The notes under the pieces are model-generated. The model had not been told where the DNA came from and made no database searches. It worked only from the letters and a program-made list of their open reading frames with translations. Source: Pseudomonas hygromyciniae (lineage in GTDB: Bacteria > Pseudomonadota > Gammaproteobacteria > Pseudomonadales > Pseudomonadaceae). From it: 64,000 bases of DNA. The position numbers and the translations under genes were made by a program. Numbering within the stretch: the stretch's first letter is position 1; every line of letters starts with the position of its first letter. Below are positions 2,559 through 58,488 of this stretch, piece by piece. The stretch covers positions 3,284,501 through 3,348,500 of the forward strand of contig NZ_CP070506.1 of NCBI RefSeq assembly GCF_016925675.1. The letters run 5' to 3'.

Positions 2559-5500
2559 ATGTCTAACGAACTGATTACCCACGATTCTTTCCCCCGTCCC
2601 CTTTCCCCTGCAGTGCCCCCCACGAGGGCGGCGGGGGACCCCCGCTATGTCGAAGACCTCGACACGCCTTACGTCGCCAATGCCGTGCAACCGGTCGTGG
2701 ATGCCGATATCGGGCTCGGTATTCGTCATCTGGAAAACGTCCTGTACATCACCTTCGAACGCTGGTTCAACCTCAACGTCGGTGATTCGTTCAAGTTCCA
2801 GATGGGCAACTTCACGACCTTGGCTGAGATCACGACAGGCAAGGAGAATGAACCTCGCTACCAGTTGGCGATTTCTTATGACGACGTCCCCATCGGCTTG
2901 GTATACCCCTGCTATGGCAGCGTGCTGCGCGCCGGCAGCAGCACCGAAAGCACTTCACCCAAACAGACCTGGCTCGTTAAAAAAACGCGCCCGGGCGGCG
3001 TGGATAAAGACCCGGGAGAGCCCTACCACTCGGAATTGGTGGTGTCTCTCCCGGCCGACTTGCAGGGACCCGGCGCAACCCTGGTCCCCGAGCGCGCCAA
3101 TTTGGGTGTGGTGCTTACGATCAAGCGATATCCCAATATTCGGGTGCGCGACACCATCGAGCTGTACTGGAATGGTCACGAGGTGCGCCTGCTCCTGGAT
3201 GAGGACCATGTTTCCGGAGCCAAACCCATCGAATTAACGGTTGAACCCGAAGTGCTCTACCGCCCCCAAGGCAGTGGCTTGTTGATCATCCGTTTCAGGG
3301 TTGTCGATGAGGTATTGAACTACTCAGGTGGGCCCTGGATGAACCCCGAGCAATTCCAGCAGCAGTGGTCCCAATCGATCCACCTGGAAAGCGACCTGGA
3401 TCCCTCCTTGCTGGAACGGCCCTACTTCCTGCTGGACGACCTCGACATCACCGATGTAGATTTCGACACCCACAGTGAAGGCCACTTTCAGGTTGAGGTG
3501 TTTGTCCCCACCCGCCTTCCCGACAACTCATTGACACCTGTCGGCACGCAGATCGTCGTGACGTTGAGCGGCATTGACGCCGTCGGCAACCCCATCACCA
3601 TGCAGTTGCCACCCTTTGCGGCCCGGATCAACCGGTCGGCCTTTGCCGATGTGCCTAACAGCTTCCTCAAACAATTGATCAACGGCACGCTGCAAATCGC
3701 CTATGAGCTGCAGTTTCCCCTGGGCACTGTGCTGGGCACCTCGCGCCGCCTTACCGTTACGATTTACGGTACCCTCTCGACCATGCCGCCAGTGCGCATC
3801 GTCGAAGCAGAGGCTGGGTTGATCGACCCGACACTTCCCTATATCACCGTCGAATTCCCGGAATACATCCCCTACGACCGCAACTACGCGGTCACCCTGC
3901 GCATGGAAGCGGTGCGTCCCGATGGCTCCGTGGAGTTTTATGAACAAGTGCTGCTGGCCGGTGACCCGCCACCGCCGACGCGCTTTCGGATCGTGTTCAA
4001 CAGTGACTTCCAGCGTTTTGAAAATATCAAGAATGTGGTGGTTTACTACCGGGTAGACGATGGCAAAGTCGGCGTCTTCGGCGCCAACCTGCTGACGGTA
4101 CGCGAGTCCGAACGACTGACGGTCCAGTTTGGCACGCGCGTGGCGTCCATGCCGCCCCCCCAACTGCAAGGGGTTGATGAACATGACAACCTCGACCCTG
4201 CGAATGTGATTGGTCAGGCCATTCTCACCCTCCCTTATCTGCGCACCTTCTCCGGGGATACATTCATCTGGAGCTGGACAGGCACCGGCATCGGCGGCAG
4301 CACAAGCGGCGAAATCGAACTCAACAACGCCAGCGCCGGTCGTCCCGTGGCGTTTCCTGTCAGCAAGTCGTTTATCGACCCCAATTACAACGGTGAGATT
4401 CGTATCCGCTACTCGTTGGTTCCGGCCGACGGTGGCCCCGTGCTGAGCTCAGAGGTGCTGATCATCAGCGTGGGCGCAGCCTTGGGCGACCTGCTCCGAC
4501 CAGAAGTCGAAGAAGCCTCAAGGCATCCCGACCAAGTGACCCCGGAGGCCCTGACGGCAGGCGCGACCATCAAGGTCACCTTTGCCCAGATGCAGACCAG
4601 CGACAGGGTACGAGCCTGCTGGAAAGGGGTGGACGGTATCGGCAGCCATTGCGAGACCAAGGACGGCAACACCTTCAAGACGCTGTTTTTCACGGTGCCT
4701 CCCGAAGTGGTCGGCAGCAGCATCCAGCCAGGCGGACGCATTATCCAAGTGCAGTATTTCCTGCGGCGCGGCACTCGGGAAATCCCGTCGCCGGTGCTGT
4801 CGTTACTGCTGCTGCCACTCACCACGCTATCGATTCCCACCATCGAAGGCATCGGCGAAAGCCCGATACTTGAACTTTCCCGCCTCGCCGGCCACGAACG
4901 CACAATGCTCAACGCCTGGCACTTTATCCACGCGGCCCAACGTATGTGGATGGAGTATCACGGTGAATATGCCGACGGCACGCCGTACTTCGAAGCCACC
5001 TATACCGCCAACCTGGTGACTGACGACGGTGTCTCCCAAGGCATCCTGCCACCAACCCCGGTGGATGAACTGCGCCTGCTCAAGGATGGCTCACGGCTGA
5101 GTATTCAGTTTTGGGTCAGCTTCAGTCGTACCTCCGATAAATCCAGTGCCGTGCTGTTCCGGATTCGTGAACACACGATCCAGGCGTTGCCCGGGGTCTT
5201 GCCTCATCCCTTCATCGACGGAGCTTCGGGCACCGGCCCCAACGTAACCATCGCCGACCCGCTGAGCATCGAGAACAATATGCGCGTCAGCGTGGCCTAC
5301 GCCATAGCAACGACTGACCGAATCACCCTGGAGATGATTTTCCAGCACGGCACACCTTATACCGTGAGCCTGGATGGCCAGGCCGGTGGCACGGTGGTGT
5401 TCTCCCTGAGCAACGCCATCCTGGCACGTTGCGTGAACAGCATCGTCTGCTTGCGATACAGCGTATTGCGTAATGGCCAGACTATTCCATCAAGCGTGCA

Positions 5501-44907: not shown

Positions 44908-45870
44908 CTACGGCAACGGCTCCCGCGAGCGCAACAGCATGCCCTGCGCCGGCACCCGCGCATGCCATTTCACCACGCCCAGGGCTTCGACACGGTACTG
45001 GCTGCGAAAGCGCTGGCCATCCAGGTCAACCTCCAGTTGCAACAGGAAGTGGTCACCGTTGAGCTGCAATCCTTCGCTCAGTTGCTCGAACATCGCATCA
45101 TCCATCGCTCCCAGGGCCTGGCGCAGTTCGCCCGCATCACGATAGCCCCCAGCCGGGCGCGCGCTGATCAGCCGGGTCAGCACCGAACGCGATACCTCGC
45201 CCTCGTACAACGCATCCAGCAGCGGCAGCATCTCCAGATTCAGCGCATTGGCGTTCAGCCGCCAGCCTGCAGTCTCGTCCAGGCTGCATAACTGCGGATA
45301 GCGCACAGCACGGAGCGCGTCGGGCACCGCCAGCAGGTTCAGCTCGCTGATATCGCGCATGCGTTGATTGGCCGCCAGGCGCGGGGGTGATTGACGCAGG
45401 TATTCGTTGCTTTCGGCACCTTGCAGGCGGGTCTGCTGGTCCGCGTCAAGCCAGTCGGCCAGGGTCTGGACCAAGCGCTCGGCGGCCATATCGGCTCCCA
45501 GCAAATGCACCAGTTGGCGCTGGGCACGTTCGGCTTCGGGGCCGATCAGGGCGTTGACGTTGAAGCAGGTGTGCAGGTCGCGAATCTGGATGCTTGCCTT
45601 GCCACCCTTGAAGTCATAAGCCAACGGTTGCCCGCGCATGGCCTGCCAGAATAATGGGCTGGCGCGCCACAACGGGTCTTGCAGGGCCTGTTCGGTAAAG
45701 GCCAGTGCCGCCCGTTCGATCGCCCGCGCCTGTACGCGCTGCTGCACCAAACGCACGCTATCGACCTGCTGGCGCCCCTGTTCGACCATCCAGGCCATAC
45801 CGCCCGCGAGCATGGCCAGGGCCACCAGCACCATCAACAACGCCGCACCCTGCTGCCGCTTCTTGTCCAT
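44908..45870 (-). CDS. gspK: Type II secretion minor pseudopilin GspK
   Basis: 320 residues from [27 protein letters not shown]. The prepilin-type leader and hydrophobic helix lack the usual Glu+5, as is normal for GspK. The large C-terminal domain with [73 protein letters not shown] and the helix-hairpin-helix-like [23 protein letters not shown] is that of GspK. It caps the pseudopilus with GspI and GspJ. It is separated from the other gsp genes by the PhoX gene and the structured repeats, and is divergent from tatA. Confidence 0.92.
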
Positions 45871-45958
45871 TGCCCCGCCGCCTTTTATGTAGAACCTGGC
45901 GACAGTCAACACACCGGATGTTTCAACCAGGTGGCAGGCTCACACAATTCCCGCAAAA

Positions 45959-45976
45959 ACGTCACCGCAGCGTCAT
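45959..45976 (+). promoter_or_regulatory. Pho-box-like PhoB binding site for tatABC
   Basis: ACGTCAC-CGCA-GCGTCAT: two GTCA cores exactly 11 bases apart, resembling CTGTCAT-N4-CTGTCAT (weaker than the box at 41672, with mismatches at the first two bases of each half). It lies 55 bases upstream of tatA and 88 bases upstream, in the other direction, of gspK. It could serve both, since the two genes are divergent. Confidence 0.6.
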
Positions 45977-46031
45977 AAAGCCTCGGCAAACTGCGCCTTC
46001 ATATTTCAAATCAATGGCTTGGAGTGTCGAT

Positions 46032-46247
46032 ATGGGTGGTATAGGGATTTGGCAACTGGTCATCGTGCTGCTGATCGTGGTGATGCTGTTCGGTACCCGG
46101 CGCCTCAAGGGCCTGGGCAGCGATGTGGGTGAGGCCATCAAGGGCTTTCGTTCATCCATGGGCAACGAACCCGGCGCCCAGGCGGCAGAAAAGACCAGCC
46201 TTGAGGTGCAAGCCGAGCCTCAGCGATCTGCAGACAGCAAACACTGA
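46032..46247 (+). CDS. tatA: Twin-arginine translocase subunit TatA
   Basis: 71 residues. [40 protein letters not shown] contains the short N-terminal membrane helix, the FG hinge and the amphipathic helix typical of TatA, followed by a charged, disordered tail. The stop overlaps the next start (TGATG). It forms the protein-conducting element of the Tat system. This is probably a second, phosphate-regulated Tat set beside a housekeeping set elsewhere, as in P. putida (tat-1). Confidence 0.93.
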
Positions 46248-47305
46248 TGTTCGATATCGGTTTTAGCGAACTGCTGCTGGTGGGCCTGGTGGCCCTGCTG
46301 GTGTTGGGCCCCGAGCGCCTGCCGATTGCCGCGCGCAATGCCGGGCTGTGGCTGGGCCGGGCCAAGCGGGCGATGAATACGCTCAAGGCCCAGGTCACTC
46401 AGGAACTGGACCACGAACACCTGTTGCAGAGCATCGATCAGCAACCCTTGCGGCAACTGGAACAGCAACTGCGCGACGGCATCCGCCTGGACGCTGCACC
46501 GCCGCCAGAAACCACCCCTTCCCCAGGACAACCTGCCCCCATGAGCGACCTGCCCTTGCCTGCCCCGCGCCTGTCGGTGACCGGCCACCTGACCCGGTTG
46601 CGCTCGCGCCTGGTGCGCTGCGTTCTGGCGATCCTCGTGGTGTTTTGCGCGCTGTTCCCCTTTGCCCAGCAGCTCTACAGCTTCGTCTCCCAACCCCTGC
46701 GCGATTTTTTGCCCAGCGGCGCAACCATGATCGCCACCGGAGTGACCTCGCCGTTTCTGGCGCCGCTCAAGTTGACCATGATGATCGCCCTGTTCATCAG
46801 CATGCCGCTGTTGCTGCACCAGGCCTGGGGCATGATTGCGCCGGCAGTGTACCGCCAGGAACGCCGCACCGCCGCCTGGTTGCTGGCCGCCAGTGTGGTG
46901 CTGTTTTACGCGGGCATGGCGTTTGCGTTTTTCCTGGTGTTCCCGATGATGTTCGGCTTCTTTACCAGCGTGACTCCAGACGGCGTGGCGATGATGACCG
47001 ATATCGCCCTGTACCTGGATTTCATCCTCGCGCTGTTGCTGGCATTCGGCCTGGCGTTCGAAATCCCGGTGGCCACCTTTCTGGTGATCTGGGCCGGGAT
47101 CACGGACGTGCAGACCCTGCAAAAAAGCCGGCCGTATGTGATCGTCGGCTGCTTTGTGGTGGGCATGCTGCTGACCCCACCGGACGTGTTTTCGCAAACC
47201 ATGCTGGCGGTGCCGATGTGGATTCTGTTTGAGCTTGGGTTGTTGGCCAGCCGGTCCGTGAGCAAGCCGCGCACAGAGGCGCCGGAGCCTGATACGGCGG
47301 GCTGA
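46247..47305 (+). CDS. tatBC: TatB-TatC fusion protein of the twin-arginine translocase
   Basis: One uninterrupted 352-codon frame. Residues 1-98 are TatB ([26 protein letters not shown], then an amphipathic helix and a charged, proline-rich tail). From Met99 (codon 46541) the sequence is TatC: SVTGHLTRLRSRLVRCVLAIL, PLKLTMMIALFISMPLLLHQAWGMIAPAVYRQERR, then FEIPVATFLVIWAG and VVGMLLTPPDVFSQTMLAVPMWILFELGLL, six membrane segments. There is no stop codon between the two parts; only a weak AGGA 12 bases before Met99 would permit separate initiation. TatB and TatC normally form a 1:1 receptor for twin-arginine signals, and engineered TatB-TatC fusions are known to work, so a natural fusion is plausible. 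The probable cargo is the PhoX protein and the nucleotidase lipoprotein. Confidence 0.88.
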   Translation: MFDIGFSELLLVGLVALLVLGPERLPIAARNAGLWLGRAKRAMNTLKAQVTQELDHEHLLQSIDQQPLRQLEQQLRDGIRLDAAPPPETTPSPGQPAPMSDLPLPAPRLSVTGHLTRLRSRLVRCVLAILVVFCALFPFAQQLYSFVSQPLRDFLPSGATMIATGVTSPFLAPLKLTMMIALFISMPLLLHQAWGMIAPAVYRQERRTAAWLLAASVVLFYAGMAFAFFLVFPMMFGFFTSVTPDGVAMMTDIALYLDFILALLLAFGLAFEIPVATFLVIWAGITDVQTLQKSRPYVIVGCFVVGMLLTPPDVFSQTMLAVPMWILFELGLLASRSVSKPRTEAPEPDTAG

Positions 47306-47362
47306 TTACGCTGTCCCCCAGGGCGCACTGACAGCGGCGCGCCTCGCCAAATAAACAAAATG

Positions 47363-47398
47363 TTGACTTAGTAAGGCGCCAAGATAAACTGCGCCTTA
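47363..47398 (+). promoter_or_regulatory. Promoter and inverted-repeat operator of the marR-type gene
   Basis: TTGACT (47363-47368) and TAAACT (47385-47390) are spaced by 16 bases. TAAGGCGC (47372-47379) and GCGCCTTA (47391-47398) form a perfect 8-11-8 inverted repeat that overlaps the promoter and touches the ATG. This is a typical autorepressor site. The predicted transcript would begin at or next to the start codon. Confidence 0.6.
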
Positions 47399-47910
47399 TG
47401 AATATTTTAGAGAACAAACACCACATCATGCTGCGCGAGCTTGATGGGGTGCCAGCCGAGGTCAGGGACAGTGTCAAGCTGTGCTTCGAGCTGCTGTCGG
47501 CCGCGGCCGCGATCAATCGTGTGTGTGCCATCCGCCTGGCCCGCTACAACCTGTCGGAGGGCCGCTTCGTCATCATGCTCACCCTCAAGAGCGCCGGCGG
47601 GAAGCTGTCGCCCCTGGAGTTGGCGACACGTCTGTCGATTACCACCGGCACCGTCACCGGCTTGCTCGATGGCTTGCAGGGCGACGGGTTTATCAAGCGC
47701 AAGACCGACCCGACCGACCGACGCAAGCTGATCATCACGCTAACTGCCGACGGCAAGCGCGTGGTCGATGAGGTGTTTGCCGAACACACCGATTGGATCA
47801 GCGCCATCATCCAGGGCTTGAGCCTTGAGCAGCGCCAGGCGTTGTCCGAGTCGATCTATTGCATCTCGGCCAGCCACGCGCTGTCCCAGCAACTGCCGGA
47901 TGAGCATTAG
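47398..47910 (+). CDS. MarR-family transcriptional regulator
   Basis: 170 residues. The winged helix reads LSEGRFVIMLTLKSAGGKLSPLELATRLSITTGTVTGLLDGLQGDGFIKRKTDPTDRRKLIITLTADGKRVVDEVF, with the DxRxx wing motif intact. No ribosome binding site precedes the ATG, which coincides with the predicted transcript start, so a leaderless message is possible. It is the first of nine co-directional genes with gaps of at most 63 bases and is their likely repressor or sensor. Confidence 0.9.
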   Translation: MNILENKHHIMLRELDGVPAEVRDSVKLCFELLSAAAAINRVCAIRLARYNLSEGRFVIMLTLKSAGGKLSPLELATRLSITTGTVTGLLDGLQGDGFIKRKTDPTDRRKLIITLTADGKRVVDEVFAEHTDWISAIIQGLSLEQRQALSESIYCISASHALSQQLPDEH

Positions 47911-47960
47911 GCCCGGGGTTCAATTGCTTCAATCGCGGTAGTCACACAAGGAGGTGTTTG

Positions 47961-48890
47961 ATGCTGCACAGTCAACGAGTGATGACCAATTTCGGCAGGA
48001 AGCCACGTATTCACAGCGGCGTCGATGTCATCCGCCACAGCGTGGTTTCCCTGGAACGCTACATCCCACCCACGCTTTACCGGCGCTTGTTTATCAAGCG
48101 TATCGCCCGTCATCCCCTGGCCATCGAAGGCTTTGAGTTTCGCCCGGTGCAAAGCCTGTTCGAACTGGAAGAGGCCTTGCGCCTGGTCAACGACAGCTAT
48201 GCACGGCGCGGTATCTCCACGGTGTGCCGGGCCGGCATGCGCTTTTCGGCGTTCCACTTGTTGCCGGGCACCACCACCTTTGTGGCGATCAAGGATCAAC
48301 AGATCGTCGGCACCGTCTCGTTGATCGAAGATTCCATGCTCGGTTTGCCCCTGGAAGAAGTCCATGGCAACGAGGTCGTCATGCAACGCCTGGCCGGCGG
48401 CCGGCTGGCAGAGGTCGGCACCCTGGCGGTGGCCGCAGGTTACCGGGGCAAAGGGGTGCCCTTGATGCTCTACAACGCGATGTTTCGCTGGGCCATGCAT
48501 TTTCGCGGGGTACAGCGGCTGCTGATCGCCGTGCATCCACGGGCGGGTGCGTTTTATCGCAATGTATTGTTCTTCTCCCCCATGGGCCGGGTGCAGCCCT
48601 ACACCAAGCTAAACAACGCCCTGTCGCTGCCCTTGTGTTTGGATCTGGGCAACGCGCCGGCAATTTTCCAGCAGGCCTATCAGCGACCTGCCCTAGGGTT
48701 TGCCGTCGAAGGCCAGCGCACGCATTTCTTCGATTTTTTCTGCCGCAGTGACTACGCCCATATCCGCCTGCCCGCCACCGGCAGCGTACGCCGCTGGGAC
48801 GCACAAGAAGTGCTGACCCATATGGCCCGCTGTGGCGTGCATGGCCGAAACCTGTCGCCACGGGTCCAGCGAGCACTGGCCCTGGCGTAA
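47961..48890 (+). CDS. FeeM-like N-acyltransferase (GNAT fold, N-acyl amino acid synthase type)
   Basis: 309 residues from the ATG following a near-perfect AAGGAGG six bases upstream. The N-terminal half has autoinducer-synthase/FeeM features: FEFRPVQSLFELEEALRLVNDSYARRG, then LLPGTTTFVAIKDQQIVGTVSLIEDSMLGLPLEEV. A GNAT acetyl-CoA-loop-like stretch AEVGTLAVAAGYRGKGVPLMLYNAMFRWAM and YRNVLFFSPMG follow. FeeM-type enzymes join a long-chain acyl group from acyl-carrier protein to an amino acid. As second gene of the operon it would provide the acylated scaffold or prime the pathway. Substrate is unknown. Confidence 0.7.
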   Translation: MLHSQRVMTNFGRKPRIHSGVDVIRHSVVSLERYIPPTLYRRLFIKRIARHPLAIEGFEFRPVQSLFELEEALRLVNDSYARRGISTVCRAGMRFSAFHLLPGTTTFVAIKDQQIVGTVSLIEDSMLGLPLEEVHGNEVVMQRLAGGRLAEVGTLAVAAGYRGKGVPLMLYNAMFRWAMHFRGVQRLLIAVHPRAGAFYRNVLFFSPMGRVQPYTKLNNALSLPLCLDLGNAPAIFQQAYQRPALGFAVEGQRTHFFDFFCRSDYAHIRLPATGSVRRWDAQEVLTHMARCGVHGRNLSPRVQRALALA

Positions 48891-48924
48891 GCACGTTCAA
48901 ACGTCATTTCATGGAGGAAGCAGT

Positions 48925-49791
48925 ATGGACAGCGGATTGCTGCGCGCGATATTCAGGGAAATAACGATCAAGCAACCGTTCGAGCGCATTCCCGAACCGG
49001 CCTTGGTCATGGAAGAACAGCAGAGTGTGGCGTCTTATGCCGACAGTGCCGCCCAGGGCCAGGCGTTGTCCGGCACCCACCTTTATCACTGTGCGCAGAT
49101 GTGCGCGCTGATCAAGCCCGGCGACGTGGTGCTGGACATCGGCTGCGGCCCGGCAGCCCTGTTGCTGCAAGTCGCACGGCTCAACCCACGGGCCGAATTC
49201 ATCGGAATGGACCTGTCGCAGAATATGCTCGAGGTGGCGCGTGAAGCGTGTCACCAACAAGGCATCGACAACGTACAGCTGATTGAAGATGACATGACCC
49301 GGCTCAGCATGATCGCTGACCGCAGCGTGGATGTGGTGATCTCGTCGATGGCCCTGCATCACCTGGAAAACCTCGGCCAGCTGGAAGGCACTTTTCGCAA
49401 TATCTCCCGGGTACTGCGCAATGACCGGGCGATTTACCTGAATGACTTCGGGCGCCTGAAAAGCATCGAGTCCGTCGACTACTTTGTCCAGCGTGCCAGC
49501 GACGGCGCGGACGCGGATACCCTGCTGGACTATCGCAACTCACTGCTCGCGGCATTCTCGCTGGAAGAGTTCCAGACCCTGGCCGCCAGTTACCTGGGCC
49601 CGTGTGCCAAGGTCTACAGCACCGCGTTCAGCCCGTTGATGATGGTGATTCGCACGCCCAAGCGGCGCTGCGTGAAAGTAATGAAGCCTGAGTTCCGCCG
49701 CCGCTACAGCGCGCTGCCCGCCAGTCGCCAGGCGGATGTGAACCAGTTGCGCCTGTTCCTGCGCCTGGGAGGCCTGGCCAGTGCCTTTTGA
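48925..49791 (+). CDS. Class I SAM-dependent methyltransferase
   Basis: 288 residues from MDSGLLRAIFREITIKQ, with GGAGGAAG five bases upstream. Motif I VVLDIGCGPAALLLQVA, motif II AEFIGMDLSQNMLEVAREA, NVQLIEDDMTRL and post-motif VDVVISSMALHHL make a complete SAM site. The residues ALHHL and NDFGRLKSIESVDYFV resemble small-molecule C/O-methyltransferases of natural product clusters. It is 34 bases downstream of the FeeM-like gene and overlaps the next gene by 11 bases. Confidence 0.88.
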   Translation: MDSGLLRAIFREITIKQPFERIPEPALVMEEQQSVASYADSAAQGQALSGTHLYHCAQMCALIKPGDVVLDIGCGPAALLLQVARLNPRAEFIGMDLSQNMLEVAREACHQQGIDNVQLIEDDMTRLSMIADRSVDVVISSMALHHLENLGQLEGTFRNISRVLRNDRAIYLNDFGRLKSIESVDYFVQRASDGADADTLLDYRNSLLAAFSLEEFQTLAASYLGPCAKVYSTAFSPLMMVIRTPKRRCVKVMKPEFRRRYSALPASRQADVNQLRLFLRLGGLASAF

Positions 49792-51418
49792 ACCCGCCCA
49801 CCTGGCACTTGCCCAGCAGCAGTGGCGCGAGGTACTCGGTGACGCGGGGGTGCGCATCGACCCCGCCAGCCTTGAGCGCTTCGGGCAAGACACCATGTGC
49901 TCCCCCGCGTATGCCAGGGTAGTGATTGCGCCACGCTCCACCGAGCAAGTGTCGGCGTGCATGGAGATCGCGCGGCGCTATGGGGTTGCCGTGCATCCGA
50001 TCAGCACCGGACACAACTGGGGCTACGGCAGCGCCTCGACCACCGACGCCCACTGTGTGTTGATGGACTTGTCCGGGATGGACCGGATTCTGGGGTTCGA
50101 TGAAGAACTGTCGGTAGTGACCCTCGAGCCAGGGGTGACCCAGGGCGACCTCGCCCGCTATCTACAGGAACACAACCTGCCGTGGCTGACACCCGTCACC
50201 GGCGCGGGCCCGACCTGCAGCGTGCTGGGCAATGCACTGGAGCGCGGTTTTGGCATCACCCCCCATACCGATCACTTTCAGGCGGTACTCGGCATCGAAG
50301 CGGTGCTGGCCGACGGGACGCTGTACCGCTCGCCAATGGCCCTGGGGGTCACCGCGCCCTGCTTCAAATGGGGTGTGGGGCCGTACCTGGACGGCCTGTT
50401 CAGCCAAAGCGGGCTGGGCGTGGTGACGCAAATGTCGATTGCCCTGGTGCGCAAGCCAGAAGTTATCCAGCCGTTCTACTTCTGGGTGGATGAAGAACAA
50501 GGGCTGGAAGCAGCCTTGGCAGGTATCAAGCGCATGCTGGACCTGGCCCCCGGGCAGATCGGCGGCATCAACCTGATGAACCGTACGCGGCTGTTGACCA
50601 TGGCCAGTGAGGACGCCCAGGTGGTGGGCCTGAGTGAAGCGCAGCAACGGGCCGCCGCCGATGCCCTGGGCCTGCCCGCGTGGATGGGCGTGGGTTCGAT
50701 CTATTGCCAGAAGGCCCAGCACGCCCCGCTCAAACGCATGATCAGCCATGAACTTGAGGCTTTCGCCAGCAAATCGCTGTTCAAGACCCGGGGTCAATTG
50801 ACTGCGGCACGACGCCTGCTGGGCCATCTGCCCGGCGGCTGGTCGCGGCGCTGGCAGCGGACCCTGGACAAAATGCTGCAAGGCATCGACCTGATGGAAG
50901 GCCAACCCAGCGAAGTGGCCCTGCCGTTGGCCTACACCGCCGGCGCCAAGCCGCTGCCCGATGCGCCCTTGAACCCTGCGCGAGATAACTGCGGGCTGAT
51001 CTGGTACGCCCCGATCCTGCCGCTGAAGATCCAAGAAGTCGCCGACTTTGTGCGCGCCATGGAACGTCGGTGCCGCCAGCAGCAAATGCCTTGCCCGGTG
51101 ACGCTGACCAGCCTGTCGAGCCGTGCCATCGACTGCACTGTGCCACTGCTGTTCGACCGTGCCGATACCCAGGCATCGAACCGCGCCCATGAGTGCTATC
51201 GCCAGCTGTTCGCCCACGGCAAGGTTCAGGGCGTATTGCCGTATCGCGTGCCCACCCGCTTCATGCACTTGTTGACCGACTCCCAGGGGCCTGCCTGGCA
51301 GCTTGGGGCGCGGATCAAGACCGCACTGGATCCGGACAACCTGCTTTCACCGGGGCGCTACTGCGCCGCAAACCCAACGCCTGACCAGGCCATGACCGCG
51401 TCGGTGGTATCGATATGA
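49781..51418 (+). CDS. FAD-linked oxidase of the vanillyl-alcohol-oxidase / p-cresol methylhydroxylase type
   Basis: 545 residues, GTG start with GGGAGG eight bases upstream, inside the end of the methyltransferase gene. The PP-loop reads VVIAPRSTEQVSACMEIARRYGVAVHPISTGHNWGYGSAS, followed by VTLEPGVTQGDLARYLQEHNLPWLTPVTGAGPTCSVLGNALERGFG, a classical FAD_binding_4 domain. The C-terminal part (RTRLLTM, LIWYAPILPL, PTRFMHLL, DPDNLLSPGRY) fits VAO-type oxidases acting on phenolic or alcohol groups. It should oxidise the operon's intermediate, making H2O2, or pass electrons to a cytochrome; none is encoded here, and a peroxiredoxin gene follows two genes later. Confidence 0.85.
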   Translation: MPFEPAHLALAQQQWREVLGDAGVRIDPASLERFGQDTMCSPAYARVVIAPRSTEQVSACMEIARRYGVAVHPISTGHNWGYGSASTTDAHCVLMDLSGMDRILGFDEELSVVTLEPGVTQGDLARYLQEHNLPWLTPVTGAGPTCSVLGNALERGFGITPHTDHFQAVLGIEAVLADGTLYRSPMALGVTAPCFKWGVGPYLDGLFSQSGLGVVTQMSIALVRKPEVIQPFYFWVDEEQGLEAALAGIKRMLDLAPGQIGGINLMNRTRLLTMASEDAQVVGLSEAQQRAAADALGLPAWMGVGSIYCQKAQHAPLKRMISHELEAFASKSLFKTRGQLTAARRLLGHLPGGWSRRWQRTLDKMLQGIDLMEGQPSEVALPLAYTAGAKPLPDAPLNPARDNCGLIWYAPILPLKIQEVADFVRAMERRCRQQQMPCPVTLTSLSSRAIDCTVPLLFDRADTQASNRAHECYRQLFAHGKVQGVLPYRVPTRFMHLLTDSQGPAWQLGARIKTALDPDNLLSPGRYCAANPTPDQAMTASVVSI

Positions 51419-52179
51419 GTGAAGAACGCAAAGACCTGATTGACCAGGGCCGCCTGGCCACTCGCAATCTGGGCGAATGCCTGGCCGTTGACCAGGTAGC
51501 ACTGGCAACGGCCCTTGGCGCACAGTTGGAGCCGTCCCTGGCGCAAACACTTTACAGCGCAGCCCAGGCCGGCCAGGCCCTGGGCATTTCCAAGAAAGTC
51601 GCCGCCCTGGGCCTTGCACTGGGGCAATGGCTGGAAAGCGCCGCCCTGCCCCTACGCGAGCAGACCTGGGGCCTGCTGCTGGAGCATCCGTCGGACACCG
51701 TGCGCAGTTGGGCGGCCTTTGCCAATGCCTATTGCCAACGCAACAGCGAACTGGAACAGGCTTTGCTGAGCCAGTTCCGGTTCGCCACCGACCCACATTT
51801 TGGCGTGCGCGAATGGGCCTGGATTGCCTTGCGACCGCTGCTGGTCCAGGACCTGACGGGCGCGCTGGAACTGCTCCGCCGCCATGCCCGCAGCGATGAC
51901 CCGCTGATCCGCCGTTTCTGCGTTGAAATCCTGCGCCCGCGTGGGGTCTGGTGTGAACACATCGCTTCGCTCAAAACCGAACCGCAGATGGCCGAACCGT
52001 TGCTGATTGCCATGCTCGATGAAACCGACAAATACGCCCAGGACTCGGTGGCCAACTGGATCAACGACGCCAGCAAGACCCGCCCGGAATGGGTGCAGCA
52101 GTTGTTCGAGCGTCACCCACCCAGCGGCAAGGCCGCCACCAGGATTTTTACCCGGGCTACCCGCAGCCTTTCTCAATAG
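51415..52179 (+). CDS. AlkC/AlkD-like HEAT-repeat protein (DNA-alkylation-repair superfamily)
   Basis: 254 residues, ATGA overlap with the oxidase gene. All-helical, with HEAT-type repeats: HPSDTVRSWAAFANAYC, FGVREWAWIALRPLL, then DDPLIRRFCVEILRPRGVWCEHIASLK and ETDKYAQDSVANWINDASKTRPEWVQQLF. The RRF..E..RPRgvW and SVANwiND.sK patterns match the AlkC/AlkD superfamily of non-flipping DNA glycosylases that remove bulky or cationic alkylated bases. In several biosynthetic clusters for DNA-alkylating compounds an AlkD relative confers self-resistance. Here catalytic residues cannot be fixed by eye, so glycosylase activity is inferred from family and context. Confidence 0.7.
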   Translation: MSEERKDLIDQGRLATRNLGECLAVDQVALATALGAQLEPSLAQTLYSAAQAGQALGISKKVAALGLALGQWLESAALPLREQTWGLLLEHPSDTVRSWAAFANAYCQRNSELEQALLSQFRFATDPHFGVREWAWIALRPLLVQDLTGALELLRRHARSDDPLIRRFCVEILRPRGVWCEHIASLKTEPQMAEPLLIAMLDETDKYAQDSVANWINDASKTRPEWVQQLFERHPPSGKAATRIFTRATRSLSQ

Positions 52180-52198
52180 ACGTGAACAGGAGTCACCC

Positions 52199-52840
52199 AT
52201 GTCGCTCAAGGACAAGCTACAAACCGTCAAGGACCAGATGGCCCAGCTGCCTACCGAAGTCCTGCACAAGTTCCAGGCATCGCTACAGACGCTGCTCGAC
52301 AGCCATTTGGGCGACAAGGCCCTGAAGGCCAGCGACAAGGCGCCCCTGGCGGTGCTCAAGGACGCTGACGAACAGGCGGTAGACCTGCGCCAGTTGCTGG
52401 ATAAAGGCCCATTGGTGCTGGTGTTCTACCGAGGCCTGTGGTGCCCCTTCTGCGGCCAGGCGTTGACCGCCTACCAGCAGATGGTCGCGGACCTGGCCGC
52501 CTCGGGCGCCACCTTGGTGGCGGTGTCGCCACAAACGCCTGAGTTCTCGCGCAAGACCCGCGAGGCCCTCGGCATCAAATACCTGTTGCTCAGCGATGCC
52601 GACAACCAACTGGCGCGCCAGTACGGCATCGTATTCAAGCTCGAAGACGAACTGGCTGAGGTCTACCGCTCCCTGGGCGCCGACCTCGAGCTGTTCAACG
52701 GCTCCGACGCCCTGACCTTGCCCATGGCCAGCGCCTTTGTGATCGGCCAGGACGGGCTGATCCGCGCCGCCTTCGTCAACGTGGACTACTCGCAACGGGT
52801 AGAGCCAGAGCAATTGATCACGGCCGCCAGCCGCGCATAA
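52199..52840 (+). CDS. AhpC/TSA-family peroxiredoxin
   Basis: 213 residues with AGGAG seven bases before the ATG. A thioredoxin fold with LVLVFYRGLWCPFCGQALTAYQQ carries a C-x-x-C active site in place of the single peroxidatic cysteine of typical Prx (PxxxTxxC is not visible). VAVSPQTPEFSRKTREALGIKYLLLSDADNQLARQYGIVF is the usual second half. A helical N-terminal extension of ~60 residues precedes the domain. It would reduce peroxide made by the adjacent flavin oxidase and halogenase-like enzymes. Function within the cluster is inferred. Confidence 0.82.
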   Translation: MSLKDKLQTVKDQMAQLPTEVLHKFQASLQTLLDSHLGDKALKASDKAPLAVLKDADEQAVDLRQLLDKGPLVLVFYRGLWCPFCGQALTAYQQMVADLAASGATLVAVSPQTPEFSRKTREALGIKYLLLSDADNQLARQYGIVFKLEDELAEVYRSLGADLELFNGSDALTLPMASAFVIGQDGLIRAAFVNVDYSQRVEPEQLITAASRA

Positions 52841-52903
52841 ACGGCAACCCTCGCCGAAGGCAGCCACGCCTTTGGCGAACCCACTTGTTCAGGGACTGAC
52901 GAC

Positions 52904-54574
52904 ATGAAACGAATCGCAATCATGGGGGCCGGTGTAGCCGGTCACCTGGCCGCGCTGTACTTCAAAAAAAGGCTACCGGGTGTCGAAGTCATCCTGATCG
53001 GGCGCCCGGACCGCAAGCGCCCGATCGTCGGCGAGTCCACGGTCGAGTTGACCACCCACTTCTTCAAGGGCCTGGGGCTGGGGCGCCTGCTGGAAGAAAA
53101 GCACTACCACAAGTACGGCCTGACCTATTACCTGAAGCTGCGCAACAACCCCGAGTGCCGCAACTACGTGGTGCACGAGGCGCCGGGCGTGATCCGCATG
53201 CCGGCCTACAACCTCAACCGCTTCAGCTTCGACAAGGACCTGCGCCAGATTGTCGGTGATCACCAGGTACACATGATTGAGGCCGATGTCACCGCCGTCG
53301 ACCTCAATGCCGGTGAGCACGCCACCCACCTGCTGACCCTGCGCAGCGCCGCCGATGAGCAACAGCAACTGACCGCCGATTGGGTGGTGGACGCCACTGG
53401 CCGTAATCGCTTCATGGCAAAAAAACTCAAGCTGCACAAAGAGGCGACTTACCAGCGCAGTACCTTCTGGCTCAGGCTCAAGGACTTTGACCGCAGCATC
53501 TTGTCCAGCATCACCGCGCACAAGGACAAGCATCACTGCTACGACCCGTACTACGTGACTCACCATTTTTATGGCAAGGGCTACTGGATCTGGATGATCC
53601 CGATGCGCAGCGATGACGGCAACGAGATGATCAGCATCGGCATCACCTACCGGCCGGACATGATCGAGCAGAAAATCAGCACCCTGGAGGCCTTCAAGGA
53701 AAAGGTCATGGCCGACCATCCGGTGATTACCGAGTTGATCGAGTCGGGCCAACTGGTCGATACCCAGGCCATGCACAACTACATGTACGAGGCGCGGCAA
53801 TACTACTCGACCGAAGGCTGGTTCCTGCTGGGCGACGCGGCGTTTACCTTCGACCCGGCCAACAGCGCCGGGCTGGCCTATGTGGCGCAGCAGATCCCAC
53901 AAGTCGCGGCAATGATCGAGAAGGATATCCACGGCAGCCTGACGCCCGCCTACGTCAATTGCCTGGAGTCGCACATCCAGGCGCAACTGGCCCTGCAGGA
54001 CACCTGGAGCAAGTGGTACGAGGTGATGGACGACCCGTTCATGATGGGCTGGACCCTGCTGTTCGCCAACATGGCGTACTTCCATGTGGTGCTACCGATG
54101 TACATGACCGGGGATTTTCTCGATGGTCATCAGGCCCAGCAGTTTGCTGACCTACTGCCGCGCTACACCCGCGAGATGCAACCCTCGCCCCTGCCGTTTG
54201 CCTGCCTGCTGCAAGAGATCCGCCGCTCCAACCCGGGCTTGAGCCCGACGATGATGCCCAACCTCTACTCGCGCACCATCAACTTCGACCTGTACAAGGC
54301 GGAAAACCGCGCACGACCGATCTACGCGTCCAACTACTACTTGCGTTCGGCCTTGCTAAGGGTGCGGCTGATGAAAATGGTCAAGTGGTCGCTGTCCGCG
54401 CGTCACCTCACGTTGTTGCTGCGCCATGGCTGTGGCGCCGTGCAGGACCTGGCTCGGGCTGCGGTCCTGCGTCTGCGCCCTTCTCTGTTCTACAAATATG
54501 GCGAGTCGCCAGAGCTGCTCAAGTCGCCGTTCGGCAAGGAAGGTGGCTTCCTCGATCTGGTACGTCGCGGATGA
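52904..54574 (+). CDS. Flavin-dependent halogenase-like FAD enzyme
   Basis: 556 residues. All three halogenase signatures are present: GxGxxG at residues 8-13 (GAGVAG), WxWxIP at 228-233 (WIWMIP) and FxPxxSxG at 316-323 (FDPANSAG). Lys70 in HYHKYGLTYY is a candidate for the catalytic lysine that guides hypohalous acid, though the flanking residues differ from tryptophan halogenases. The WxWxIP motif distinguishes halogenases from monooxygenases, so the enzyme should halogenate or hydroxylate an aromatic or activated carbon. It needs reduced FAD from a reductase; none is in the operon. It is overlapped by the amidase gene (ATGA). Confidence 0.8.
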   Translation: MKRIAIMGAGVAGHLAALYFKKRLPGVEVILIGRPDRKRPIVGESTVELTTHFFKGLGLGRLLEEKHYHKYGLTYYLKLRNNPECRNYVVHEAPGVIRMPAYNLNRFSFDKDLRQIVGDHQVHMIEADVTAVDLNAGEHATHLLTLRSAADEQQQLTADWVVDATGRNRFMAKKLKLHKEATYQRSTFWLRLKDFDRSILSSITAHKDKHHCYDPYYVTHHFYGKGYWIWMIPMRSDDGNEMISIGITYRPDMIEQKISTLEAFKEKVMADHPVITELIESGQLVDTQAMHNYMYEARQYYSTEGWFLLGDAAFTFDPANSAGLAYVAQQIPQVAAMIEKDIHGSLTPAYVNCLESHIQAQLALQDTWSKWYEVMDDPFMMGWTLLFANMAYFHVVLPMYMTGDFLDGHQAQQFADLLPRYTREMQPSPLPFACLLQEIRRSNPGLSPTMMPNLYSRTINFDLYKAENRARPIYASNYYLRSALLRVRLMKMVKWSLSARHLTLLLRHGCGAVQDLARAAVLRLRPSLFYKYGESPELLKSPFGKEGGFLDLVRRG

Positions 54575-56053
54575 ATGGCATGGCGCAGGTCCGGGCAGAC
54601 TTGCTGGAACTGAGTGCCGTGCAACTGGCGTGGTTGATCCGCGGCAAGCAGATATCGCCGGTGGAGCTGATCGAGCAATGCATTGCGCGCCTGGAGCAGG
54701 TCCAGCCGCTATGCAATGCCATGGCGGTCGACCTGTTCGAGTCTGCCCGCGACGCCGCCCGCCGAGCCGAAGAGGATGTGCTCAAGGGTCGGCCATTGGG
54801 GCGCTTGCACGGTGTGCCCTTCTCCATGAAGGAAGGCCTGGGTCTTGCGGGGCAGCCCAAGACCTGCGGTTCACGCCTGCGCAGCAACACCCGCGCCCGC
54901 AGCACCGCCACGGTCGCCACGCGGCTGATGGCAGCCGGCGCCATCCCGCTGGCCCTGGGCAATCAGGCAGAGATGGCGCTGTGGCCCGAAACGGACAACC
55001 TGGTGTATGGCCGCACACTCAACCCCTACGACCCCTCACGCACCGCCGGCGGCAGCAGCGGCGGTGACTCAGTGATGGTCGCCAGCGGATGCGTGCCCTT
55101 TGCCCTGGGCACCGACGGCGGCGGCTCGATCCGCATCCCGGCGGCGTTCAATGGGATCTTTGGTTTGAAGCCGTCGCGGGGGGCTGGTGCCGCTGAGCGG
55201 ACATCTGCCGCTGGATGAGCAGCGGGTGTCACTGCCGGTGTCCCAAGCCGTTGCCAGCCACTTCGCCGCCGGCCCCTTGTGCCGGTATGCAGAGGACCTG
55301 GGCGCAGTACTGGAGGTCATCGCCGGCAGCGACGGCATCGACCGCAATATCCACTCGGGCTATCAGCAACCGCCCCAGGCCACGACGCTCAAGCGCGTAT
55401 TCGTCTGCCTGCCAGCCCCTCTCAAATGGGGTACGCCAGTCTCGCCCGCCGTGACTGCCGGGGTGATCGAGACCGGCCAGCGTTATGCCGACCAGGGCGT
55501 GGCGGTGCACGCCTGGAATGAGGGCTGTTTGACCAACGCCTTTTTTATCTGGCTGGCCGTCCTCAAGTGCGAGACCCGCATTCACCTGGCCGACTACCTC
55601 GGGGATGGGCAGCCACTGAACTATCCACGGGCGTTGTATGCCGCCCTGGCCGGCAAGCCGCAATTTTCAAGGGGGCCACTGCTCGCCAGCCTTATGGACA
55701 GCTGCGGCGATCGACTGGGTAACCCGGGGCTCTCGCGGTTCCTCAAGCAGCGCGATCACCTGCAGCAGACCCTGGCCGGGCTGTTCGACGGCCAGAGCAT
55801 TCTGGTATTGCCGGCCACCCCAACCGTGGCGCCGGCCCATGGCAGTGCCCTGAAGCGCCCGTTCGATATCGGCTATTGCGCGCTGTTCAATGTTCTCGGT
55901 TTTCCGGCCCTTTGCGTGCCCACCGGGCGCCTCGACCAGGGCTGCCCGGTGGCCGTGCAACTGGTGGCCGGGCTGGGCCAGGACGGGTTGTTACTGGAAG
56001 CGGCGCGCTTTCTGGAAATGGAATTCGGCGGCTGGCGCAAGCCCCCGCTCTAA
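54571..56053 (+). pseudogene. Amidase-signature-family hydrolase, frame broken by one extra base
   Basis: Starts at MNGMAQVRADLLELSAVQLAWLI. The amidase catalytic triad is visible as VPFSMKEGLG (Lys), SRTAGGSSGGD (cis-Ser) and ALGTDGGGSIRIPAAFNGIFGLKPS (Ser nucleophile). At the six-G run 55178-55183 the frame slips into RGAGAAERTSAAG and a stop; removing one G gives GLKPSRGLVPLSGHLPLDEQRVS, which continues to EFGGWRKPPL. The repaired protein has 493 residues, full length for the family. Given five similar +1 events in this window, a sequencing error is likelier than a dead gene. It may hydrolyse or form an amide on the product of the preceding enzymes. Confidence 0.8.
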
Positions 56054-56076
56054 CCCTTCAAGCACTAGGACACCCC

Positions 56077-57414
56077 ATGCAAACCAACACCAGCGCTATC
56101 ACGCTACAACCCCCTGCGCCTGCGGGCGGGCAATCGGCCGTAGGTTCCCAGGCCGAGCACTTGACCTTGTTGTTCCTGATCCAACTGATCGTGATTTTCA
56201 GCGCCAGCCGCTTGATCTCCTGGCTCAGCACCCGCTGCCTGGGGCAAACCCCGGTGGCCGGGGAGATTCTCGCCGGGCTGGTCCTGGGCCCGAGCCTGCT
56301 GGGTTATTTTTTCCCGGAACTGCTGAGCAGTATCTTTGTGCCGCAAACCTCCACCGCCTTTGTCGCCACGGCCCAGGTCGGCCTGATTCTGCTGATGTTC
56401 CAGGTGGGCCTGGAATTTGAATTCGGTGCCCACCTCAAGGGGCGTAAGCGCTCGATCATGGCCATCAGCCTGGGTGGACTGCTGGTGCCGTTTGCCAGTG
56501 GTTTCCTGGTAGCCGAGTACTTTTGGCAACAGATCGTCGGCGACAAGCCACCGCTGCTGGCCTTCCAACTGTTTTTTGCCACGGCGCTGTCGATCACCGC
56601 CCTGCCGATCCTCGGGCGGATTTTCATGGAACTGGGGCTGTCCCGCTCCCGCGTGGCCACCCTGACGATTGGCGCGGCGGCCATCGATGATGTGTGCGGT
56701 TGGCTGATCCTTGGCGGGGTGACTTCGATCATCGCGTCCAACTTCAGCGTGTGGGCCTCCCTGGGCAGAATCCTCGCGCTGGCCGTGTTTATCGTGTTGG
56801 TACTGTGGGTGGTGCGGCCCCTGGTGCTGCGCTGGATCATCGGCGACCTGGAGCGCAAACCGCTGTCGGCCCAGGGCATATCGCTGATGCTGATCGTGCT
56901 GTTTGGCAGTGCGGTGATTACCAACCTGATCGGCGTATTTTCGATCATCGGCGGCTTTATCATCGGCGTCGCCCTGCACACCCACCGGCCCTTTGTCACA
57001 CAGTGGAATGCCAAGGTCAGTGGGCTGGTGAATGCGTTTTTCCTGCCGGTGTTCTTTGCCTACACCGGCCTGCGCACCGACATCGGTTCGCTCAACGGCG
57101 ACACAGCGCTGCTCAATTGCTTTTTGGTGTGCCTGGTGGCGTTCGCCAGCAAATTCTTCGGGGCCTATGGCGCCAGCCGCTGGCTGGGCGAGACACCGCG
57201 CAACAGCGCGCTGATCGGCGTGTGCATGAACACCCGGGCGCTGATGGAATTGGTGGTGCTTAACGTGGGCTATGACCTGGGCGTGTTGCCCAAGGAGTAC
57301 TTCACCATGCTGGTGATCATGGCCATTATCAGCACCTTTATCGCCTCGCCCCTGATCCGCCTGCTGACGAGCGAAGAAAGACGCGTGCCGGTGGGCCAGC
57401 CTGCGGTGAAATAA
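56077..57414 (+). CDS. CPA2-family cation:proton antiporter (Kef/NapA type)
   Basis: 445 residues with AGGA seven bases upstream of the ATG. About 12 membrane segments are visible, starting FLIQLIVIFSASRLISWL. The hallmark GQTPVAGEILAGLVLGPSLLG, TAQVGLILLMFQVGLEFE, FFATALSITALPILGRIF, TIGAAAIDDVCGWLI (conserved IDD) and IIGGFIIGVAL are those of Na+(K+)/H+ antiporters. No TrkA-N or TrkA-C domain follows. As last gene of the nine-gene cluster it may protect against cytoplasmic acidification or ion stress from the pathway or product, as Kef systems do for electrophiles. That role is inferred. Confidence 0.88.
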   Translation: MQTNTSAITLQPPAPAGGQSAVGSQAEHLTLLFLIQLIVIFSASRLISWLSTRCLGQTPVAGEILAGLVLGPSLLGYFFPELLSSIFVPQTSTAFVATAQVGLILLMFQVGLEFEFGAHLKGRKRSIMAISLGGLLVPFASGFLVAEYFWQQIVGDKPPLLAFQLFFATALSITALPILGRIFMELGLSRSRVATLTIGAAAIDDVCGWLILGGVTSIIASNFSVWASLGRILALAVFIVLVLWVVRPLVLRWIIGDLERKPLSAQGISLMLIVLFGSAVITNLIGVFSIIGGFIIGVALHTHRPFVTQWNAKVSGLVNAFFLPVFFAYTGLRTDIGSLNGDTALLNCFLVCLVAFASKFFGAYGASRWLGETPRNSALIGVCMNTRALMELVVLNVGYDLGVLPKEYFTMLVIMAIISTFIASPLIRLLTSEERRVPVGQPAVK

Positions 57415-58066: not shown

Positions 58067-58488
58067 CAGTTCAACATCATTGCCGTCGCGCAGGCCTTCG
58101 AGGCCAGTTTCAACCTTGTGCGCGTACTGCGTCCCCATGTCGCCGCCCCGGCCAACTATGTGGCGCAACTGCTGCGCCAAACCGCGCGAGGCTACCGTTT
58201 ACTGGCCGCGTGGGACGCTGGGCAAATGGTCGGCCTGGCCGGTTATCGCGAGTTGGAAAACCTCTCTACGGGCGCTTTATCTACGTCGATGATCTGGTGG
58301 TGCACCCAGACCTGCAGCGCAGCGGCCTGGGCGCTGTTCGCGTTGAAGCCGTGCAGCGCGGTAGCACCCATTTCGTACTGGACACCGGGCTGCATACGCC
58401 GCTGGCCCAACGTTTCTACTTTCGCCAAGGGCTGCTGGCCCACGGCATGCACTTCACCCAGAGCCTTCAGACAGAGAATCACGCATGA
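58061..58488 (+). pseudogene. GNAT acetyltransferase remnant abutting the BIME array
   Basis: From the last base of the array the frame reads FNIIAVAQAFEASFNLVRVLRPHVAAPANYVAQLLRQTARGYRLLAAWDAGQMVGLAGYRELENL, a GNAT N-terminal half. At ~58262-58270 a CT duplication (CTCTCT) shifts the frame; the other frame continues YGRFIYVDDLVVHPDLQRSGLGA and finishes HFTQSLQTENHA. The acetyl-CoA loop after GLGA appears shortened (VRVEAVQRG instead of an additional ~4 residues). No ATG start remains in a sensible place; the array reaches the first codons. Together this looks like a decayed gene. Confidence 0.65.

Follow-up and report, generated by a model that had tools for sequence, protein, structure and literature searches.

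We analysed a window of 64,000 nucleotides from the genome of Pseudomonas hygromyciniae (6.29 Mb). At positions 47398–57414 it carries nine genes on the plus strand that apparently form a widely conserved, undescribed biosynthetic unit, in which a gene resembling the DNA-repair gene alkC behaves like an immunity gene. Successive genes are separated by 47, 31, −11, −4, 19, 63, −4 and 23 bases. An earlier note on this DNA had described nine genes in the same direction with gaps of less than 65 bases or overlaps, which is confirmed (−11 to 63 bases), and its family labels each find support in Pfam, weak in the case of the AlkC-like protein. The features are as follows.

about 47352..57414, +, whole unit as a shared DNA block; left edge about 46 bases 5′ of the MarR ATG, right edge at the CPA2 stop in close relatives, flanks vary
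47363..47398, +, promoter-like block with an 8-bp inverted repeat (hexamers read from the DNA, repeat computed)
47398..47910, +, MarR-family regulator, 170 amino acids (aa) (Pfam MarR, 48.6 bits)
47958..48890, +, FeeM-like N-acyl amino acid synthase, 310 aa (PF21926, 126.6 bits)
48922..49791, +, class I S-adenosylmethionine-dependent methyltransferase, 289 aa (Methyltransf_31, 81.5 bits)
49781..51418, +, flavin oxidase of the vanillyl-alcohol oxidase/p-cresol methylhydroxylase (VAO/PCMH) type, 545 aa (FAD_binding_4, 93.9 bits)
51415..52179, +, AlkC-like HEAT-repeat protein, 254 aa (HEAT_2, 29 bits; DNA_alkylation, 22.5 bits, weak)
52199..52840, +, AhpC/TSA peroxiredoxin-like protein with a CPFC motif, 213 aa (AhpC-TSA, 87.3 bits)
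52904..54574, +, flavin-dependent halogenase-like enzyme, 556 aa (Trp_halogenase, 75.3 bits)
54571..56053, +, amidase-signature enzyme, frame broken once (open reading frames 54571–55218 and 55187–56053; Amidase, 201.7 and 56.3 bits in two frames)
56077..57414, +, CPA2 antiporter, 445 aa, membrane domain only (Na_H_Exchanger, 167.3 bits)

For the antiporter, the ATG at 56077 is the most likely start, in preference to 55876, where the longer open reading frame begins.

Distribution and extent of the unit

All nine genes occur in the same order and on one strand in each of ten other Pseudomonas loci (L021–L030), with 81.6–99.6% identity for CPA2. The halogenase-like gene was found in 9 of 298 Pseudomonas genomes and the FeeM-like gene in 11 of 398, the window genome counted in both. 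Halogenase identity to other Pseudomonas genomes reaches 99%, P. gessardii DSM 17152 (L024/L032) being among them. At L029 (12088–12952) the methyltransferase gene lies in two frame pieces.

To look beyond the genus, one genome per species was scanned with an alignment of 32 halogenase sequences as query, which gave 79 loci. FeeM, methyltransferase, VAO and halogenase genes stand together in 16 of these (six from Pseudomonas, nine from other genera and one from Bryobacterales). The remaining 63 hold a halogenase relative without this core and are excluded from the counts of 16 given below; some also have, at other distances, an antiporter or a VAO homologue. Five of the six Pseudomonas loci (L031–L035) come from the same genomes as L022, L024, L030, L028 and L027, and the two sets overlap to that extent. 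The nine other carriers are Burkholderia sp. Bp8963, Vreelandella stevensii, Collimonas silvisoli, Undibacterium crateris, Pseudoalteromonas flavipulchra, a Frankiales metagenome-assembled genome (MAG), Pannonibacter carbonis, Rhizobium sp. FKY42 and Defluviimonas denitrificans. All nine keep the order FeeM–methyltransferase–VAO–halogenase–amidase and also have the AlkC-like gene, which precedes FeeM instead of following the VAO gene in Pseudoalteromonas, Frankiales, Pannonibacter, Rhizobium and Defluviimonas. Altogether 15 of the 16 core loci contain the AlkC-like gene (a contig end cuts it in the Frankiales MAG), while antiporter, peroxiredoxin and MarR regulator are present in some versions of the cluster and missing from others. 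A glycosylase-type gene thus lies within a conserved biosynthetic operon, co-oriented in 10/10 Pseudomonas and 15/16 core loci, five genomes being common to both counts. Because the genes are colinear in all ten Pseudomonas loci and the core order is kept in the nine others, the arrangement is not a product of chance. The earlier note had offered scattering of the genes in other genomes as grounds for abandoning its proposal of a biosynthetic unit; the core genes are linked in all of these loci. Among 369 surveyed genomes of the class, the window's own was the only one with a match at E ≤ 1e-100.

The edges of the shared DNA fit the cluster. On the right they fall at 57413–57414 in the four closest relatives (L021–L024) and at 57368 in the more distant L025–L030; on the left they fall at 47350–47363, except in L024, whose left flank matches too. 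The cluster DNA of L021 is 95% identical to that of the window, and neither flank is held in common. Because the block edges fit the cluster while the flanks vary in this way, the sequences identify the nine genes plus their promoter as the unit of transfer. Pairwise divergences are correlated for every pair of genes (r 0.74–0.98, the lowest values involving CPA2).

Several features of the surroundings were recorded. Upstream, at 44908–47305, lie a GspK-like gene and apparent tatA and tatBC genes (labels read from the sequence); they adjoin the cluster in the window genome and L024, are separated from it by other DNA in L022 and L023, and lie apart from it in L021. Downstream, a truncated frame at 58485–58868 matches only the C-terminal part of the Flavodoxin_2 profile and is possibly a quinone reductase relic. 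It was set aside as a lost tenth gene, as the quinone reductases of distant clusters (see below) had no match in the window at E ≤ 1e-3. In V. stevensii (L038, 10256–12576) an IS21-type element (IstB plus rve transposase) sits between amidase and antiporter, and the Pseudoalteromonas cluster (L041, 13274–14083) has a second methyltransferase behind the amidase.

Enzymes, regulation and accessory genes

The FeeM-like protein exceeds the curated PF21926 cut-off of 27 bits, and its sole PDB match at E ≤ 0.1 is FeeM (2g0b, 1.5e-08). Enzymes of the FeeM type acylate amino acids. For the methyltransferase, no NCBIfam model reached its cut-off among the best 25 of 54.

Y82, Y488 and R489 of the VAO-type oxidase align with PCMH and are invariant in all 15 rows compared; the rows used for residue conservation included four of the ten other Pseudomonas loci. 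We take this Tyr, Tyr-Arg set to be the phenolate site through which PCMH and VAO bind p-alkylphenols. Since it is kept throughout, the substrate is likely to be a phenol resembling tyrosine, with a p-quinone methide as the expected intermediate; the aromatic substrate assumed in the earlier note is in this sense supported, as a phenol. The oxidase thus shares the FAD_binding_4 domain and the phenolate site with p-cresol methylhydroxylase and vanillyl-alcohol oxidase, and 4-cresol dehydrogenase (p-cresol methylhydroxylase) is among its nearest solved relatives. Unlike PCMH, it belongs to a biosynthetic operon and has no equivalent of Tyr384, presumably the residue that links the flavin covalently in PCMH (N, D or H in the 15 rows). 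Relatives listed by a search with the VAO protein are for the most part Marinobacter or unnamed sequences, with little bearing on the cluster.

In the halogenase-like protein the GxGxxG and WxWxIP motifs and the active-site lysine are invariant in 15/15 rows, apart from one Ser in the GxGxxG of the Bryobacterales sequence, and a DPxxSxG motif and K70 are conserved. The best structural matches of its model include the halogenases RadH, CmlS, ChlB4, PltM and CtcP, together with an uncharacterised flavoprotein; kynurenine monooxygenase follows lower. Fold, motifs (including WxWxIP) and catalytic-type lysine are those of CmlS, PltA/PltM, RadH and CndH, although identity is 14–22% among the structural matches listed. 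Judged from these features, the product is probably halogenated. A plasmid search gave two records, one of them a Methylorubrum populi plasmid (NZ_AP014813.1) with a near-full-length halogenase relative, 46% identical, at 3707–5365; an FAD-binding oxidoreductase is also annotated under this match. The two halves of the amidase meet at about 55.18–55.22 kb in the window genome, and the gene is a single intact frame in 10/10 relatives.

Directly upstream of the MarR gene lies a perfect 8-bp inverted repeat, TAAGGCGC-N11-GCGCCTTA (47372–47379/47391–47398), which ends on the first base of the ATG and overlaps the probable −10 box; the promoter-like hexamers, read from the DNA, are TTGACT (47363–47368) and TAAACT (47385–47390). 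The operator-like block is recognizable at this position in 10/10 Pseudomonas relatives, with a mismatch in one arm in several. The repeat is a probable autoregulatory operator, and the mRNA of the operon is perhaps leaderless. Two cysteines of the regulator are conserved (C43 in 9/9 rows, C29 in 8/9), which makes it a candidate thiol-based electrophile sensor.

The earlier note had counted the antiporter as a defence against electrophile or ion stress. An electrophile-gated protein of the Kef type finds no support: Na_H_Exchanger is the sole match, TIGR00932 gives 117 bits against a cut-off of 238, and no RCK/TrkA_N domain, which we take to be the regulatory domain of the electrophile-gated Kef antiporters, was matched.

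The peroxiredoxin occurs in 10/16 core loci (Pseudomonas, Burkholderia, Vreelandella, Collimonas and Undibacterium). All five AlkC-carrying loci that lack it (Pseudoalteromonas, Frankiales, Pannonibacter, Rhizobium and Defluviimonas) have a Flavodoxin_2 protein, with the quinone reductase fold, beside the cluster; the Frankiales record comprises 9125 bases and starts inside the AlkC-like gene, so that the absence of peroxiredoxin is weakly tested there. Two of these Flavodoxin_2 proteins, searched over L021–L057 and the window, matched in those five loci only. In the Bryobacterales locus a glyoxalase-superfamily protein lies between halogenase and FeeM. We read peroxiredoxin, quinone reductase and glyoxalase-like protein as putative interchangeable protection against peroxide, quinone or another electrophile.

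The AlkC-like protein and its chromosomal site

The earlier note had called the product of 51415..52179 AlkC/AlkD-like. Kinship to AlkC stands: sequence and predicted fold place the protein as an AlkC relative with the HEAT-repeat AlkC fold. Kinship to AlkD does not, as AlkC matches far better; AlkD2 is the second-best fold match. E171 and W179 align with E156 and W164 of AlkC, which we assume to be catalytic there, and are invariant in 14/14 rows, of which 13 are cluster copies and one is the AlkC that the window genome has besides, a separate protein of 365 aa. The cluster protein stops at 254 aa, without the C-terminal Ig-like domain that we regard as an AlkC feature. It differs from P. fluorescens AlkC (5VHV, 5VI0) in lacking this C-terminal part of the longer AlkCs, in a Trp at the position of E121, and in a family-specific HFGVREW motif. 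Three residues before that Trp, the cluster copies have an invariant Glu133.

The gene also occurs by itself. It was found in 13/298 Pseudomonas genomes, namely the nine halogenase carriers and four others, and in these four no other cluster gene was matched within the 14–20 kb of surroundings fetched. The solo genes retain the family motifs and nest among the cluster-borne copies in the tree, in a group whose internal forks do not resolve. Three of the four (L114–L116) occupy the same neighbour-bounded site as the whole cluster in, for example, L027, L028 and L030. One border of the site is a LysR/YdcZ pair (in L115 only DNA beyond that pair); the other is a gene for a 193-aa protein. Next to a solo gene it ends only a few bases from the AlkC stop; in cluster carriers its end coincides with the CPA2 stop or overlaps it. 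The border protein (L116, 10137–10718) has no Pfam match and finds matches at E ≤ 1e-40 in 118/298 Pseudomonas genomes. Thirty loci, a subset of those 118 genomes, were opened at this gene: three hold the cluster, three the solo gene and one a relic, eight are empty with LysR/YdcZ neighbours, and 15 have other neighbours and are uninformative on the site. The relic (L123, 2080–2370) is a decayed remnant of the C-terminal end of the AlkC-like gene at an otherwise empty site.

In these three genomes the AlkC-like gene alone occupies the place that the entire cluster has in other species, and the distribution of cluster, solo gene, relic and empty site resembles, on this comparison of genomes, that of an immunity gene. 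The cluster may have been lost from around it, or the gene may have preceded the cluster at this site. Retention without the pathway makes a role as a biosynthetic enzyme unlikely. The protective role that the earlier note gave the repair-like gene is supported by its occurrence without the cluster, which in three genomes is at the site that the cluster occupies elsewhere.

Product, immunity and alternative readings

DNA-glycosylase genes lie within clusters for reactive natural products in Streptomyces, such as YtkR2/C10R5 (AlkD-type) and AlkZ/TxnU (AlkZ/YcaQ-type), and both types are known self-resistance proteins (PMC8626424, PMC8934636, PMC9040887). The present unit is similar in this respect; unlike the Streptomyces clusters it has the AlkC type, has no non-ribosomal peptide synthetase or polyketide synthase (NRPS/PKS), is hosted mainly by proteobacteria, and has its glycosylase-type gene also solo at the cluster site. 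With FeeM and the stieleriacine, thalassotalic acid and kyonggic acid clusters it shares a FeeM-type N-acyl amino acid synthase as key enzyme. According to PMC12479983, N-acyl dehydrotyrosine clusters share an adenylyltransferase/cyclase and a nitroreductase. None of the nine genes matches either family, which rules out this known (stieleriacine-type) pathway; here VAO oxidase, halogenase-like enzyme, amidase and AlkC-like protein are found instead. No published description of the gene set was found in a literature search that had few subscription papers in scope, in agreement with the earlier note, which knew of no such cluster. That search named no AlkC-type self-resistance, and we know of no earlier case.

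On the combined sequence evidence, the nine genes are a probable NRPS/PKS-free cluster for a DNA-damaging metabolite with its own immunity, in which the AlkC-like gene is the probable determinant of self-resistance and its product probably a DNA glycosylase. We lean towards a scheme in which the unit produces a small lipidated, tyrosine-derived electrophile and shields the producer from it. The FeeM-like enzyme, by analogy with its family, would acylate a tyrosine-like amine with a fatty acyl chain, and the methyltransferase would cap a hydroxyl, an amine, a carboxyl or a ring carbon. The VAO-type oxidase, whose phenol-binding residues are seen in the sequence, could then remove a hydride para to the phenol, yielding a p-quinone methide and, with oxygen, H2O2. 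The halogenase-like flavoenzyme has the motifs for halogenation and, depending on whether it uses halide, would halogenate or hydroxylate the ring. Finally, and speculatively, the amidase might cut an amide. The simplest target would be the bond to the acyl chain from the FeeM step, in which case that chain would serve as a protecting group; both the sequence of the reactions and the part played by the amidase are conjecture. The AlkC-like protein, with its fold, partial active site and solo occurrence, would act as immunity gene product by excising the DNA adducts of the compound. Peroxiredoxin or quinone reductase would deal with peroxide or quinone by-products, and the cysteine-containing MarR protein may derepress the operon as the electrophile accumulates.

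Several observations weigh against this scheme. The position aligned with E121, which we take to be a catalytic or essential residue of P. fluorescens AlkC, is Trp136 in 13/13 cluster copies and Glu in the genome's own AlkC. At E ≤ 1e-10 there are 3299 AlkC-like relatives, many from genera in which no cluster was seen, and because of this the family as a whole is no marker of genotoxins. The Bryobacterales core (FeeM, methyltransferase, VAO, halogenase) has no AlkC-like gene. The fourth solo copy (L113) is at a different site, and the solo genes could be ancestral repair genes that the cluster captured later. Monooxygenase and reductase models (QhpG, GG reductases) also give scores with the halogenase-like protein. 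Pfam recognizes no dedicated exporter among the nine genes. The correlated divergences would also be expected if each gene just followed its host. As the amidase frame is broken, the pathway may be unfinished in the window strain.

The abundance of AlkC-like relatives and the solo copies in Pseudomonas would also suit a general alkylation-repair gene that the cluster acquired. In that case the product, for instance a signal or surfactant of the N-acyl tyrosine kind, would not itself harm DNA, and the gene would lower background damage by peroxide or methylation. FeeM-type stieleriacines are indeed N-acyl tyrosines with roles in growth and biofilms (PMC7293339). We nevertheless consider this rather unlikely: the window genome already owns a separate AlkC, three of the four solo copies are at the cluster's own site, and in 15/16 loci, including the Frankiales MAG, the gene stays with the core even as its position in the operon shifts. 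The protein could instead be a HEAT-repeat scaffold or otherwise non-catalytic, like AlkD2-type HEAT proteins, which, we presume, are without a substrate-recognition motif. The weak Pfam score (22.5 bits), the Trp at the E121 position and the second-best fold match to AlkD2 fit such a role; the invariance of E171 and W179 in all 14 AlkC rows, and the motifs retained by solo copies with no pathway gene nearby, make it improbable. We give equally little credence to a MarR-controlled catabolic operon that breaks down an N-acylated aromatic by means of amidase and VAO oxidase, with the supposed halogenase acting as a flavin hydroxylase. VAO/PCMH enzymes and amidases are often catabolic, and the kinship to 4-cresol dehydrogenase points the same way, but a FeeM-type synthase and a methyltransferase are among the constant genes, Pfam finds no ring-cleavage gene among the nine, and the halogenase lysine and WxWxIP are invariant.

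The scheme of a tyrosine-derived electrophile with self-protection can be extended, as a tentative possibility, to a new NRPS/PKS-free class of genotoxin: an acyl mask added by FeeM, methylation, halogenation and oxidation to a quinone-methide warhead, unmasking by the amidase, and AlkC-type immunity, with solo-gene strains as immune non-producers. By analogy with colicins, and just as tentatively, producers, immune strains and sensitive strains would then coexist in the genus.

If the scheme holds, the unit would represent an undescribed family of natural products in proteobacteria, with one genome each from an actinobacterial MAG and an acidobacterium, and, to our knowledge, the first AlkC-type self-resistance. 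The repair-like gene would offer a handle for compound discovery, and the states of one chromosomal site (whole cluster, AlkC-like gene alone, relic and empty) would amount to a natural experiment on producers, immunes and sensitives.

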